Source: Auricularia sp. M13
Lineage: Eukaryota; Basidiomycota; Agaricomycetes; Auriculariales; Auriculariaceae
Length of the DNA: 64,000 bases
Direction: 5' to 3'
Assembly (NCBI GenBank): GCA_037042915.1
Contig: CM073193.1
Span: 4,774,001-4,838,000 of the forward strand
Shown: positions 15,664 through 64,000 of the stretch, piece by piece
Layout of the letters: the number at the start of each line of letters is the position of its first letter
How positions within the stretch are numbered: the first letter of the stretch is position 1
Translations under genes and position numbers: made by a program
The notes under the pieces: model-generated
What the model saw: the letters and a program-made list of their open reading frames with translations, nothing else
Told to the model about the DNA's origin: nothing
Databases searched by the model: none

Positions 15664-16847
15664 ATGGCATTCTCTCCGACGTCATCTGTCGATGTTGTAC
15701 CCTACGGGCGATTCGGATCGCAACTCAGCAATGTCAGGCACCAACCAGCCTCAATCATTCCAGTTCATGTGGCGGAGTGTCTTTCCCGGGCGCTCGAAGT
15801 TATTCCACTGTATGGTCCCGCAGATACGTAGGGAATCTTGCTATTTGGATTACTATTCTTCATATTCAATGATGACGCTTTCAGAGCCCCCAAAGTCGAT
15901 GCAGCGCCGGCCGCTTCATTGTCTAAATGTGTGGCGTTCGCCCTCGATGCTCGAGCAAGCTTGGGGCGATCCATGCGCGCAGCCAATGAGATTCGTACGG
16001 CTTTGTCTCTATCCCTACGTAGCTTCGGGTCCTTGAAAGGAGGAATCCTCAAGGATGAGCTACCGATGGCACGAAGGAAATTGGATCATATCACTTCGAT
16101 CGCCCAAAGCACTCGAGATGCTATCGGGCATGTTTACGACGCTGCTGTGATGGTGAATACACACCTTCCGCCCTCTTGAACAGCCCGCTGATTTTCTCAG
16201 ACTTCTAGCGATCTAGGAGCTCAAGTTGCGAACCCTCCCAGTTCCACAATACCAAGCTGGATGAAAGCCGTCCGTGTCGGCAGCGTCTGCGTTTCTGCAC
16301 CAACGCTAGCTGCCGCCGTTCTCTCCGCCGTCTGGAATGCCGCTCACCCCAGACTTGCCTTCGCGATGGCACTCGTGAGCGCTACGACGGGGACATGCGG
16401 TGCAGTCGCGCCTTGCATTGCACAGTGTATGCTCTCTCTCTCTCTCTCTCACGCCATCCTCATAATCTGCTCATGCCTTCATCCGTCACAGGGTATTGGG
16501 AATCCAGTCCTGCCAGCCTCAGTGGGCAGGCCCCGAGCGGCGACGTGCGCGCAGTGCAAGTCGAGGCACATCGCTTGTGCTACCCGCTGTCCCTCATCTT
16601 CAAGTGGTGGCAGAAACTCGCCTACAGGATGCAGCTCCTCACGAAATGGACGGACGGGCCGGCTGAAGTGATGCACGATCTGCAGACGCTCGTAGAACAG
16701 GTCGATCAGTACATGGGAGAAGTGAGTACCAGTCTTCACGTAGCCAGTATCGTCCCCTCATCCCGATATCAGATGCGAGTCATTCTCCAGTCGATCGAGA
16801 GTGTCTGCGAGGTCCGGAAGTCAGGCGACGTCGCCGACATCGTCTGA
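15664..16847 (+). CDS. A-family protein A1 of a convergent A/B pair
   Basis: Unrecognised family with five copies here. Exons 15664-15827, 15885-16152, 16201-16426, 16492-16721 and 16773-16847 give 320 aa; intron phases 2,0,1,0 are identical in all five copies. N-terminal motif IIPVHVAECLSRALEVIPLY; a helical region from exon 2 (FALDARASLGRSMRAANEIR); then, at about residues 168-218, two hydrophobic segments joined by a short turn (VGSVCVSAPTLAAAVLSAVW / NAAHP / LAFAMALVSATTGTCGAVAP). Exon 4 has VEAHRLCYPLSLIFKWWQKL with the conserved WW. There is no signal peptide. Intron 3 contains a CT microsatellite. The stop lies 14 bp from that of B1 on the other strand. Function unknown; a helical protein with a membrane-inserting hairpin is inferred from sequence only. 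Confidence 0.78.
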
Positions 16848-16861
16848 GCGTCATGTTGGCG

Positions 16862-17839
16862 TCATGGCTGGACCAACGCTCTCCAAGACAACTCCTTTCT
16901 GTTCATCCCGTGAATATTTTTGTTATGGCACATGTAACCAAGGACATACTTTACCGATTCATCGAGTGCATGTGGACTCCTGACAAGCGCGGGCTGAGGT
17001 CGACTCAAATCCTGCTCCCCTTGAGTCAGCGGATTGATGAAGTCGAGGTACGCATCGCCGAGCTGCTGGATAGACTGAAGCCGGAGGAGGTCCTCGCGGC
17101 GGAAGGTGTGGTTTTGCCCCGCAAAGAGCCCCTGTCGTTTCCTCCAGAACGCCTCAATGCGCCCCAAGCTCTGGAGCATAGTCGCGAGGTCCTCCCTTAC
17201 TGCGACCCCACAGGAGACATCGCGTGAAGGCTCGGCTCGCGAAGGGGATGGCGCTGGCGACGCGATCGTGCCGATATTGCGCAGGAACGCGACAACACCA
17301 GACTGCGCTGAACGTGAACGGGCCGCGTAGAACTGAGACAAAGAGTCGGAGAAGCTGCCCCAAGCGTACAGTGCGTCGTCCAGAAGACGATGACTAGATG
17401 CGCAGCCACTGAGAATCGCCGCGACCATCTGCTGGAATCGCGTGGTGCCGCTGGTCGACGGCGCGTCTCGGAGATTGGAAGCAGCGGTGAACGCGGCGCG
17501 GGAGATGAGCACCGTCGTGATGGATATGATGTTCGAACATATGTCGAAGTACGCATAGACGAGCCGTGCACGGATTTCGAGGAGCTGCTGTCGCAGCGAT
17601 GCCGGCGCCTCCGTATCCTGGGATAGAGCAGAGGCAATATCGTGAATGGCGTTTGTAACGCGTGTCGCCGCGTCGGTCAGGTCGGTCGTAATGGGCCAGA
17701 GGTCTTGAATGTCAAGAAGATCATCTGCAGCGCTCTACAGCAAGGTCGGTCTCGAACGCGGATGTCGACGGCAACGGCGGCCTCACCTGCGGGCCCAGTA
17801 CTTCTACTGGCAGAGCCTCGGCGTTTAGTGAGTGTGCCA
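16862..17839 (-). CDS. B-family protein B1 of a convergent A/B pair
   Basis: Unrecognised family. Exons 17786-17839, 16950-17734 and 16862-16898 give 291 aa, with intron phases 0 and 2. The first exon is MAHSLNAEALPVEVLGPQ; exon 2 opens SAADDLLDIQDLWPITTDLT and continues as mostly helical sequence (LRQQLLEIRARLVYAYFDIC, FLRNIGTI) to the conserved RIEAFWRKRQGLFAG. The 37 nt last exon encodes the family end motif ELSWRALVQP. No signal peptide or clear membrane helix. An upstream in-frame extension is possible, because the promoter region shares an open frame with B3 (RLGSIHLIPRHVGTSC). It faces A1 tail to tail. Partnership with A1 is inferred from the fivefold conserved arrangement. Confidence 0.76.
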
Positions 17840-18596
17840 TGGCTGTTGAACGCGCGGGTGCTCCGATGGAGCTGGATCGTAGGCAAGAGGTGCCAACATG
17901 GCGCGGGATTAGATGAATGCTTCCGAGGCGCGAGAAACCACGGTCCAGCTGTTGGGCGCTCGGGCGCAAAACGGAGCTTCTCAGGCTTGGCAACTATCCT
18001 GCACCTTTGCGATAACCTCGCAGAGGTAGACGTCGAGGCATCCCTCTTCCTTATTGTATATTTGGTTCCCTCAATTAGATCGTGCGACACGGAAAATACG
18101 AGCTTGGTCGCACGCGACAAAGTACATTGGCAAAGCCGCAAATTCACTGCACTACAGCAACTTAAAGCCTCTTGAAGCACGCTGGGGCTTGTGCGACATG
18201 CTTTAACACCCTTTGAATCCACGCTATGCTCGCCGCGTCACGCTTCGCACGCGAGACGCACTTCCTGCGCATGCAGATCTTGCAGCAGAAACTCGGTCTA
18301 CCTGCCCTCCGTTGTGCATGTGTGCTTGAGTGACTGACAAGTGGTGATCTGTATTCCATGCCTGAAGGGACCTCCCCGTCTTACAATCCTATCCTACTCT
18401 ATCCTATCCTGGGCTGAGAACGAGGTATATCCCTTGATATCGCGAGCATCGCCACTGACTCACCACTCACGAGGTCCCCAGCCTGCTTCTTCAGAAGTTG
18501 ATACGTGTGTGCAACATGAGGATGCCGCACATACATGCGCTGCTAGCACTTGCTTGATAGCTTACGTTACTCTTGCTTTCCTTCGTCCATTCGCTC
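17840..18596. other. Intergenic with B-type promoter and a MYND-gene relic
   Basis: About 17,840-18,070 matches, with scattered differences, the sequence just upstream of B3 (about 27,990-28,214), including a nearly identical run GCGCCTCGGAAGCATTC. Beyond it, 18,097-18,155 resembles the first codons of the minus-strand MYND gene that is divergent from B3 (shared AGCTTGGTCG-like and AAATTCACT blocks), but here the ATG is ACG and the frame is lost. A CCTAT microsatellite-like tract lies at about 18,388-18,410. Confidence 0.6.
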
Positions 18597-62322: not shown

Positions 62323-62678
62323 GGCGACAAAGAAGGGACGCGCCAACGGGATTTGCCGAAGGCGTGTCAAGTCCGCAACATCCCGGTCCGCAACCCCGAA
62401 GTTCCCGCGCCCAGATCGTCGTGTAGTTAACTTCTTGGCCATATTGCGAACTTGGCTTGCATTGGCCATTGGATGATACCCTGCGATGTGCGTTCCCTGG
62501 CTTGCCGCAATCCGAATCACCGACTCACTCGCGCCGCATACGTAATTGGAGCATCGCCTTTTGAGGCATGCTTCGTGTAGGCTTGGTGCACACCTTGAAC
62601 ACGAGGGCCAGGCGTGGGCTGCCGTCTAAATTGCTGGGCCGGATCGTACGCATAAGTTGTCCAATATCACTGCCAGTC
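62323..62678. promoter_or_regulatory. Divergent promoter, double-F-box gene 2 and A5
   Basis: 356 bp between start codons; no other gene. Confidence 0.4.
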
Positions 62679-63866
62679 ATGTCTCAGCTAGAGGTCGTCG
62701 CCGCCTCGTCGCGCACCCGAAGTGTGCCTTTCAGTATCGCTCCAAAACAGAAGCATCCCATCGATCGTCGTCATCGGCATGGTCAGATCCTGCCGTCTCA
62801 CGTAGCCGATAGCTTATCTCGTGGCCTCGCAACCATTCCGTTGTATGCGGAAAATTCGTATGTAATTGCTTAATTGATCATTGTTCTCTCGCTCTAAATC
62901 TATGCACACATGATCCCTCCTCCACGAAGTGTCGACGCTGGACCGGGTCCTATATTAAGCAGACCTGTGGCATTTTCCCTGGATGCGCGGTCGACGCTTA
63001 AGAGGTCGTTACGCGTCGCAACTGAGCTTAGAACGACGCTTTCACGAATGCTTCGCATACTCAAGGCCGAGCGCGAATATATCACGGAGGATAACGCTCG
63101 CACCTGCCGGGAGCTGGCAGACAACCTCTCCTGCATCGCCGAAGGCACACGTGATGCCTTCAGCCACATCCACGGCACTGCCGAGGCGGTATGTCTTTAA
63201 ACCCTCGGCCCCCTTGGTCCGCTCCCTAAAGCAACATAGGTATCGCAGGACATGGCTAGTCATATTCGTCAAACCGCAGCTACATCCGTTCCCTGCTGGA
63301 TAAAGACTGCCCGCATTGGAAGCATATGCGTGTCGTTACCAGCGTTCGCTGCTGCCGTCCTTTCCGCCGTCTGGAACACGACACACCCTTTGCTCGCACT
63401 CATCATGGCCCTTGTCAGTGCCACTGCGGCGATGTGTGGCGGCATAGGGCCTTGTATTGCTCAATGTGCGTATGGACTTCGCCGACAAGTGCACATGCAT
63501 TGGATACGACTGACGGCTTCCGACCATTAGGGTACTGGGAGATGACCGACAAGAACCCTCCGCGCGCAGACATACAAGCTGTGCGCATAGAAACGCATCG
63601 ATTATGCCATGCACTGTCGCTGCTCGTGGAGTGGTGGTTCAAACTGGCTGCTATGGTCTATTGGCTTACCAAATTGACCGAGGGCCGTCGTACAACACAT
63701 ATTATGCAGGAACTAGTGACTATTAAACAACACCTTGACCGGTATCTACGAGAAGTGAGTATCAGTCCTCATGATACATGACATGCTCATGTGTACATAG
63801 ATGCAGGACATCCTCAGCTCCGTAGAAAGCGGAACGGGTATGCTAGGCGACGTGGAGATGGTCTGA
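62679..63866 (+). CDS. A-family protein A5 of a convergent A/B pair
   Basis: Exons 62679-62857, 62930-63188, 63240-63465, 63531-63754 and 63801-63866 give 317 aa; phases 2,0,1,0. N-terminal motif ILPSHVADSLSRGLATIPLY; exon 2 AFSLDARSTLKRSLRVATEL; exon 3 MASHIRQTAATSVPCWIKTA and the hairpin RIGSICVSLPAFAAAVLSAV / NTTHP / LALIMALVSATAAMCGGIGP; exon 4 TDKNPPRADIQAVRIETHRL and LSLLVEWWFKLAAM; last exon MQDILSSVESGTGMLGDVEM. The 3' splice site of exon 3 could also be 9 nt downstream. Closest to A3. Its partner B5 begins its 3' end 11 bp beyond the stop. Confidence 0.78.
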
Positions 63867-63877
63867 AGTTCTGAACT

Positions 63878-64000
63878 TCACGGCGCGATAAGCGCTCGCC
63901 ATGAAAGTTGTATTCTGTATATGCCATCAATTCTTTTTGTATTTCATATGGAACGCCATGAACATACTTCATAGATCCGCTGAGGCTACGAGGTGTGCGC
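63878..64000 (-). CDS. B5, 3' end of B-family partner (partial, runs off window)
   Basis: The 37 nt terminal exon (63,878-63,914) ends IQLSWRALIAP, the B-family end motif, and is preceded by a GT-AG intron; before that the previous exon ends PRSLSGSMK. Exon length, phase and motif match the four complete B genes. The rest of the gene lies beyond the right edge. Its presence, predicted from the A5 partner, confirms that the A/B arrangement also holds at the fifth locus. Confidence 0.8.

Follow-up and report, generated by a model that had tools for sequence, protein, structure and literature searches.

Introduction

ClyA-type alpha-pore-forming toxins (HBL, AHL, Smh, Xax/Yax, ClyA) are bacterial and mostly secreted, whereas the aegerolysin/MACPF cytolysins of mushrooms are two-component, membrane-acting fungal proteins. 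The HD1/HD2 mating-type pairs of basidiomycetes form multiple, mutually redundant two-gene units within a single region, with highly diverged versions and with linked partners that are kept together by head-to-head packing. Among fungal het loci, the divergent gasdermin pair RCD-1-1/RCD-1-2 of Neurospora is proposed to form mixed, version-dependent membrane pores upon strain fusion (PMC12881547), and the divergence pattern of Aspergillus fumigatus het genes is described to fall off within 500 bp (PMC11138114). For basidiomycetes, one review states that 3-5 loci, some highly polymorphic, govern somatic incompatibility and that its mechanisms are completely unknown (PMC8229728). Here, we describe two protein families, A and B, whose genes form tail-to-tail pairs in a 64,000-nucleotide stretch of Auricularia sp. 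M13 (C1:4774001-4838000, termed the window; contig CM073193.1 of assembly GCA_037042915.1, which comprises 52.1 Mb in 14 contigs).

The main result, in our judgement, is a hyperdivergence between two versions of the same units, which is new with respect to a sequence-only reading of the window, as the second array of units lay beyond it. Six positions form one array, of which positions 3-5, and position 6 with less clean flanks, bear old divergent versions inside near-identical DNA and represent concrete candidates for recognition loci. The RCD-1 gasdermin pair is the closest mechanistic precedent that we know of. As in the fungal het loci, the versions are divergent and the footprint is narrow (PMC12881547, PMC11138114). 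In contrast to these loci, A and B have no Pfam row for HET, gasdermin, HeLo or NLR domains at E <= 10 (some het genes also lack one), each unit combines two non-homologous partners, and a basidiomycete-type life cycle would need a different rule. The HD1/HD2 pairs likewise comprise several linked two-gene units in one region with highly diverged versions, but A and B have no homeodomain and are arranged tail to tail instead of head to head. A mating-type locus was considered and rejected: the sole Homeobox_KN match of the genome is at C3:1150569-1150682, STE3 matches lie on C7 and neither A nor B yields a Homeobox row. With the aegerolysin/MACPF cytolysins, A and B would share the two-component, membrane-acting organization predicted for them, but they are predicted to be all-helical and have no aegerolysin or MACPF match in Pfam.

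Twelve A/B units in two arrays

The sequence-only reading had proposed five convergent pairs in the window, with five-exon A genes (phases 2,0,1,0) and three-exon B genes (phases 0,2; final exon of 37 nt). Spliced gene models place all five pairs where claimed and reproduce this architecture in 5/5 A genes and in the four B genes that are complete in the window; the B gene of pair 5, completed from adjoining genome DNA, has the same exon structure (Table 1). A genome search with one A and one B protein as queries (E <= 0.01) yielded 37 A exon matches, assigned by position to 12 places, and 12 B matches. Each A place adjoins a B and no orphan of either family was found, the family counts being lower bounds. 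All units are located on contig C1, where they form two arrays of six that mirror each other, at 826-917 kb (array 1) and 4790-4865 kb (array 2). Units 1-6 refer to the window array (array 2, with unit 6 beyond the window) and primed numbers to array 1. For the eight units modelled in addition to four window pairs, i.e. pair 5 and seven units outside the window, phases and exon numbers were imposed on the splice-site search, so that the result is that open models are obtainable in each. Read in this way, all 12 units are convergent with open reading frames, a five-exon A with phases 2,0,1,0 and a three-exon B, and the 37-nt last B exon is present in 11 of them, the exception being unit 5' outside the window (31 nt). 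Only 3-14 nt separate the two stop codons of each unit, so ordinary 3' untranslated regions of the two genes would overlap. The retention of both partners at every locus, noted for the window, extends to all 12 units found in this genome, and it is plausible from these sequences that A and B work only together.

Divergent versions within near-identical flanks

Array 1 pieces were aligned to array 2 and identity was calculated without gap columns in 250-nt and 100-nt windows, leaving out 100-nt windows that had fewer than 70 aligned columns as well as the part right of 43100, because an indel blocks the alignment there. These alignment windows are non-independent and rank-test values are descriptive only. 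Median identity across the 184 flanking windows is 98.9% (mean 96.5%), and of the 13 that fall below 90%, 12 are no more than ~1.1 kb away from pair 4 or 5. Identity between versions is flank-like in pair 1 (98.1%) and pair 2 (97.6%) and amounts to 92.6% in pair 3, 77.6% in pair 4 and 67.0% in pair 5. The worst stretch of pair 4 is formed by the abutting gene ends, with a smaller dip upstream of B and a right flank that is unscorable because of the indel. Around pair 5, aligned windows show 98-100% identity up to ~62.0 kb and 95-99.6% beyond ~65.0 kb. Pair 6 is 81% identical over 3.5 kb between flanking pieces of 85-87%, which makes its boundary less clean. Confinement of divergence to the gene and its near flanks, as at het loci, is therefore clear for pairs 4 and 5, mild for pair 3 and not seen for pairs 1-2, in a comparison that covers two versions only. 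Between 98-100% flanks, positions 58000-59499 have no aligned counterpart in the array 1 piece, so that either one version gained or the other lost this stretch.

Synonymous divergence reaches 1.55 in A5 and 0.92 in B5, 1.45 in A6 and 0.56 in B6, 0.67 in A4 and 0.23 in B4, and 0.18 in A3 and 0.16 in B3, with values of 0.02-0.08 in pairs 1 and 2, and dN/dS is below 1 in all comparisons. The difference between versions is explained by old variants or by the import of such variants; fast protein change alone is insufficient. As judged from these alignments, divergence is distributed as in recognition genes under balancing selection.

Joint history of A and B

The grouping of the A genes into (1), (3,5) and (2,4) is upheld by sequence identity, with B concordant. 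Congruence of the A and B trees had been named as a check on joint duplication, and within this genome both trees contain the same groups, namely (2,2')+(4,4'), (1,1'), (3,3') and 5' with 6 and then 6', at fork supports of 84-100; the placement of unit 5 in the A tree is unsure. The A and B distance matrices correlate with r 0.959, a value reached in 0/10,000 permutations. Identity matrices, trees and the hairpin alignment used a unit 2' A model that misses two GC donors, which are included in the corrected model used for the permutation test and dN/dS. Since the matrices agree and the trees have the same groups, movement has mostly involved whole units. Array 1 holds at its position 5 a unit-6-like pair (5' versus 6: 92% amino acid identity in A, 86% in B) within flanks that match position 5. 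The idea that the pairs duplicated and diverged together is mostly borne out, but their history is not an entirely shared one, given that amino acid identity between versions is lower in A than in B for pair 4 (66% versus 84%) and pair 6 (60% versus 79%). Mutual paralogy of A and B was also considered and is unsupported, a profile comparison giving a probability of 0.2% for such a distant relationship.

Two versions of one block

The two arrays are inverted and located ~3.9 Mb apart on C1. Collinearity extends past them in 1-6 kb BLAST matches at 92-98%. Probes at 700, 780, 818, 960 and 1000 kb match 5040, 4955, 4880, 4747 and 4640 kb at 95-97%, and the probe at 761 kb matches 5000 kb at 100%. 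Probes at 4680, 4740, 1100 and 5200 kb are without comparable partner and the 4920-kb probe has dispersed-repeat matches only. No second whole copy was detected for samples from C2:1.5 Mb and C1:2.0 Mb, the latter with partial copies 35-40 kb off, and the C1:0.4 Mb sample is a dispersed repeat and as such uninformative on block duplication. The 700-kb probe is itself present in tandem copies; near-identical copies of a 300-nt probe from there occur ~10 kb apart at seven places, among them 660, 670, 680, 690, 700 and 710 kb. This spacing suggests that a tandem array with a 10-kb period adjoins the first block (C1:660-710 kb).

With 9.42 Mb, C1 is nearly double the size of the next contig (5.18 Mb), and the second block (~4.64-5.04 Mb) lies near its middle. 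We therefore tend to think that this block belongs to the other haplotype and was left between two wrongly joined chromosomes. Only in this case are the two forms alleles proper, hence the term version is used. A point that weighs against a retained haplotype is the lone Homeobox_KN match, which favours a one-haplotype assembly and a true duplication. Accordingly, the second array might be an ordinary segmental duplication in which single pairs diverged, in the absence of balancing selection, because paralogous units converted or replaced one another. The presence of both blocks in one contig, inverted and megabases apart, fits this explanation, as does the closeness of 5' to 6, by which units move between positions. 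Yet we hold it to be decidedly unlikely: C1 is far larger than the other contigs, the second block sits between two chromosome-sized parts like a haplotig in a false join, and replacement among known units fails for pair 4, where 4 and 4' are mutual closest relatives despite the low identity of their A proteins.

Features of the A and B proteins

Neither family had been recognised from the sequence, and profile searches yielded no convincing match in Pfam or NCBIfam, nor did a comparison with PDB sequences. The weak rows stem from single members and were taken as noise, each A row in Pfam (among them Amastin, MgtE and CorA; lowest E 0.02) coming from 1/5 members and each B row from 1/13 members (lowest E 0.011 for Pfam, 0.0068 for NCBIfam). 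Nine B relatives are found in the protein database, including two hypothetical proteins of Auricularia subglabra (locus tags AURDEDRAFT_162336 and AURDEDRAFT_183343) that are each encoded on a 744,501-base contig, perhaps one scaffold. In 7/9 relatives the C-terminus consists of W-R-A and 3-4 further residues, as in window B proteins, but not in the two A. subglabra models. For A, neither a five-member alignment (7,998 candidates scored) nor residues 163-275 of A2 as query (180 candidates) identified a relative outside this genome, the existence of which is not thereby excluded. In the open-licence literature, no title or abstract start on these genes was retrieved for basidiomycete or Auricularia incompatibility, balancing selection or Auricularia locus tags, and no relevant paper for fungal ClyA-like toxins or for a mushroom chromoprotein seen among the fold matches.

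The A proteins carry a conserved hydrophobic hairpin of ~50 residues that starts at about residue 170-188, contains 0-1 charged residue before its end and has an invariant Asn and Pro in its turn. Between A5 and A5', hairpin blocks are 80-85% identical and most others 28-50%, with residues 41-80 (80%) as an exception. By a crude test for signal peptides, none of the 24 proteins has a 12-residue stretch with mean hydropathy >1.6 within its first 40 residues. B is predicted to form a long-helix bundle, whose best matches among solved structures are mostly ClyA-type toxin subunits, at non-significant scores, while the structure model of A is poor. Two partners and a hydrophobic hairpin in one of them resemble the ClyA-type toxins, as would the helix bundle predicted for B; the hairpin, found in A only, may insert into membranes. 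Unlike these bacterial toxins, A and B have no row for any ClyA-type member family in Pfam, NCBIfam or PDB sequences at E <= 10, and they are not classed as members.

A possible role in non-self recognition

The proposal builds on four observations, namely tail-to-tail pairing in 12/12 units, the conserved A hairpin, the lack of a signal-peptide-like stretch and the sharply bounded hyperdivergence. From these, we tentatively favour, at somewhat less than an even chance, a cytosolic, all-helical, two-component device of A and B that acts on membranes, pairs in a version-specific manner for non-self discrimination and is kept diverse by balancing selection. Its anatomy is that of linked partners, one of them probably membrane-active, with versions replaced as units and variation mostly outside the hairpin. 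A would be the subunit that inserts into membranes, with B as its soluble counterpart, in a build like that of ClyA-type multi-component toxin subunits. The A and B of one unit would fit each other through their helical parts outside the hairpin, and tail-to-tail packing with nearly touching stop codons would keep matched partners linked. An A that enters the cytoplasm without its B would damage membranes, whereas a matched B would make its own A harmless, or assembly would occur only when matched, so that a mycelium with both versions survives. A rare-version advantage could then maintain several versions. A dikaryon, however, houses unlike versions together, and the review argues that direct allelic killing is unworkable there (PMC8229728). 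For this reason, the rule preferred is that a matched B restrains its own A. The more specific proposal, in which the units are multi-locus, multi-version non-self recognition genes of basidiomycetes encoding matched two-component membrane-damaging proteins, in a tail-to-tail arrangement that preserves the matching of partners, and the first molecular candidates for mushroom somatic incompatibility, is speculative and, taken as a whole, unlikely.

The strongest rival to non-self recognition, which we consider rather unlikely, is a two-component toxin kept in the cytosol to deter nematodes and other grazers, with diversity reflecting an arms race with varied targets instead of recognition between mycelia. 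If true, the units would represent a novel class of helical two-component toxins in fungi; however, tightly bounded divergence of whole units is better known from recognition loci, and A and B have no Pfam match to a described fungal toxin. Under either explanation, there is now a testable hypothesis for two protein families that are conserved and lack annotation. The close linkage of the stop codons, the combination of one predicted membrane-active and one soluble partner and the unit-6-like pair at position 5 of the other array would also suit a poison-antidote pair, in which A is the poison and B the antidote of a selfish killer element whose drive operates via spores or nuclei. Drive elements are expected to leave suppressor or dead copies, but the 12 units found include neither an orphan antidote nor a disrupted poison gene, A being as open as B in 12/12, and such an element appears improbable.

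Upstream block of B and features of the window

A block of ~90 nt upstream of B is strongly conserved in pairs 1, 3, 5 and 6 and their counterparts, although B proteins from different ones of these four groups share just 53-60% identity, which makes shared regulation likely. An ATG within the block opens a short frame (MLAPLA...) in 8/8 units of these groups (e.g. 17841-17990 and 28065-28214). By eye, the frame overlaps the B start codon in the units inspected and is possibly a regulatory upstream open reading frame (ORF).

Table 1. Features of the A/B pairs in window numbering; aa, amino acids
Feature	Position	Strand	Description	Basis
A, pair 1	15664..16847	+	5 exons, 320 aa; hydrophobic hairpin from residue 170	spliced model
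B, pair 1	16862..17840	-	3 exons, 291 aa	spliced model
Conserved block upstream of B, pair 1	17850..17940	-		sequence comparison
A, pair 2	18597..19795	+	5 exons, 326 aa; two GC-AG introns required	spliced model
B, pair 2	19809..20834	-	3 exons, 311 aa	spliced model
Conserved block upstream of B, pair 3	28110..28200	+	same block as pair 1	
B, pair 3	28215..29200	+	3 exons, 295 aa	spliced model
A, pair 3	29204..30361	-	5 exons, 318 aa	spliced model
B, pair 4	40588..41559	+	3 exons, 288 aa	spliced model
Hyperdivergent tract, pair 4	41250..42749		60-83% per 250 nt; B 3' end and most of A	
A, pair 4	41570..42819	-	5 exons, 338 aa	spliced model
Hyperdivergent tract, pair 5	62250..64000, continuing to ~65.0 kb		59-83% per 250 nt	
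A, pair 5	62679..63866	+	5 exons, 317 aa	spliced model
B, pair 5, 3' part	63878..64000	-	full gene 63878-64862, 294 aa	genome DNA added

Apart from the A/B pairs, the window contains inverted repeat arms of ~1.8 kb at 237-2071 and 13385-15238 that are 94-97% alike over four stretches. An ORF in one arm, 1278-1772(-), matches Pfam His_biosynth and is near-identical to the ORF 13692-14201(+) in the other. Further Pfam matches are UvdE (3321-3863), NmrA/NAD_binding_10 (38918-40003), zf-MYND (35249-36808) and alpha/beta hydrolase (36926-37885), and a neighbouring gene at 50972-52144 matches Glyco_hydro_18 below cut-off. Two NmrA-like genes (24989-26392 and 38907-39941) are located between A/B pairs and contain DNA stretches that are 81-89% alike.

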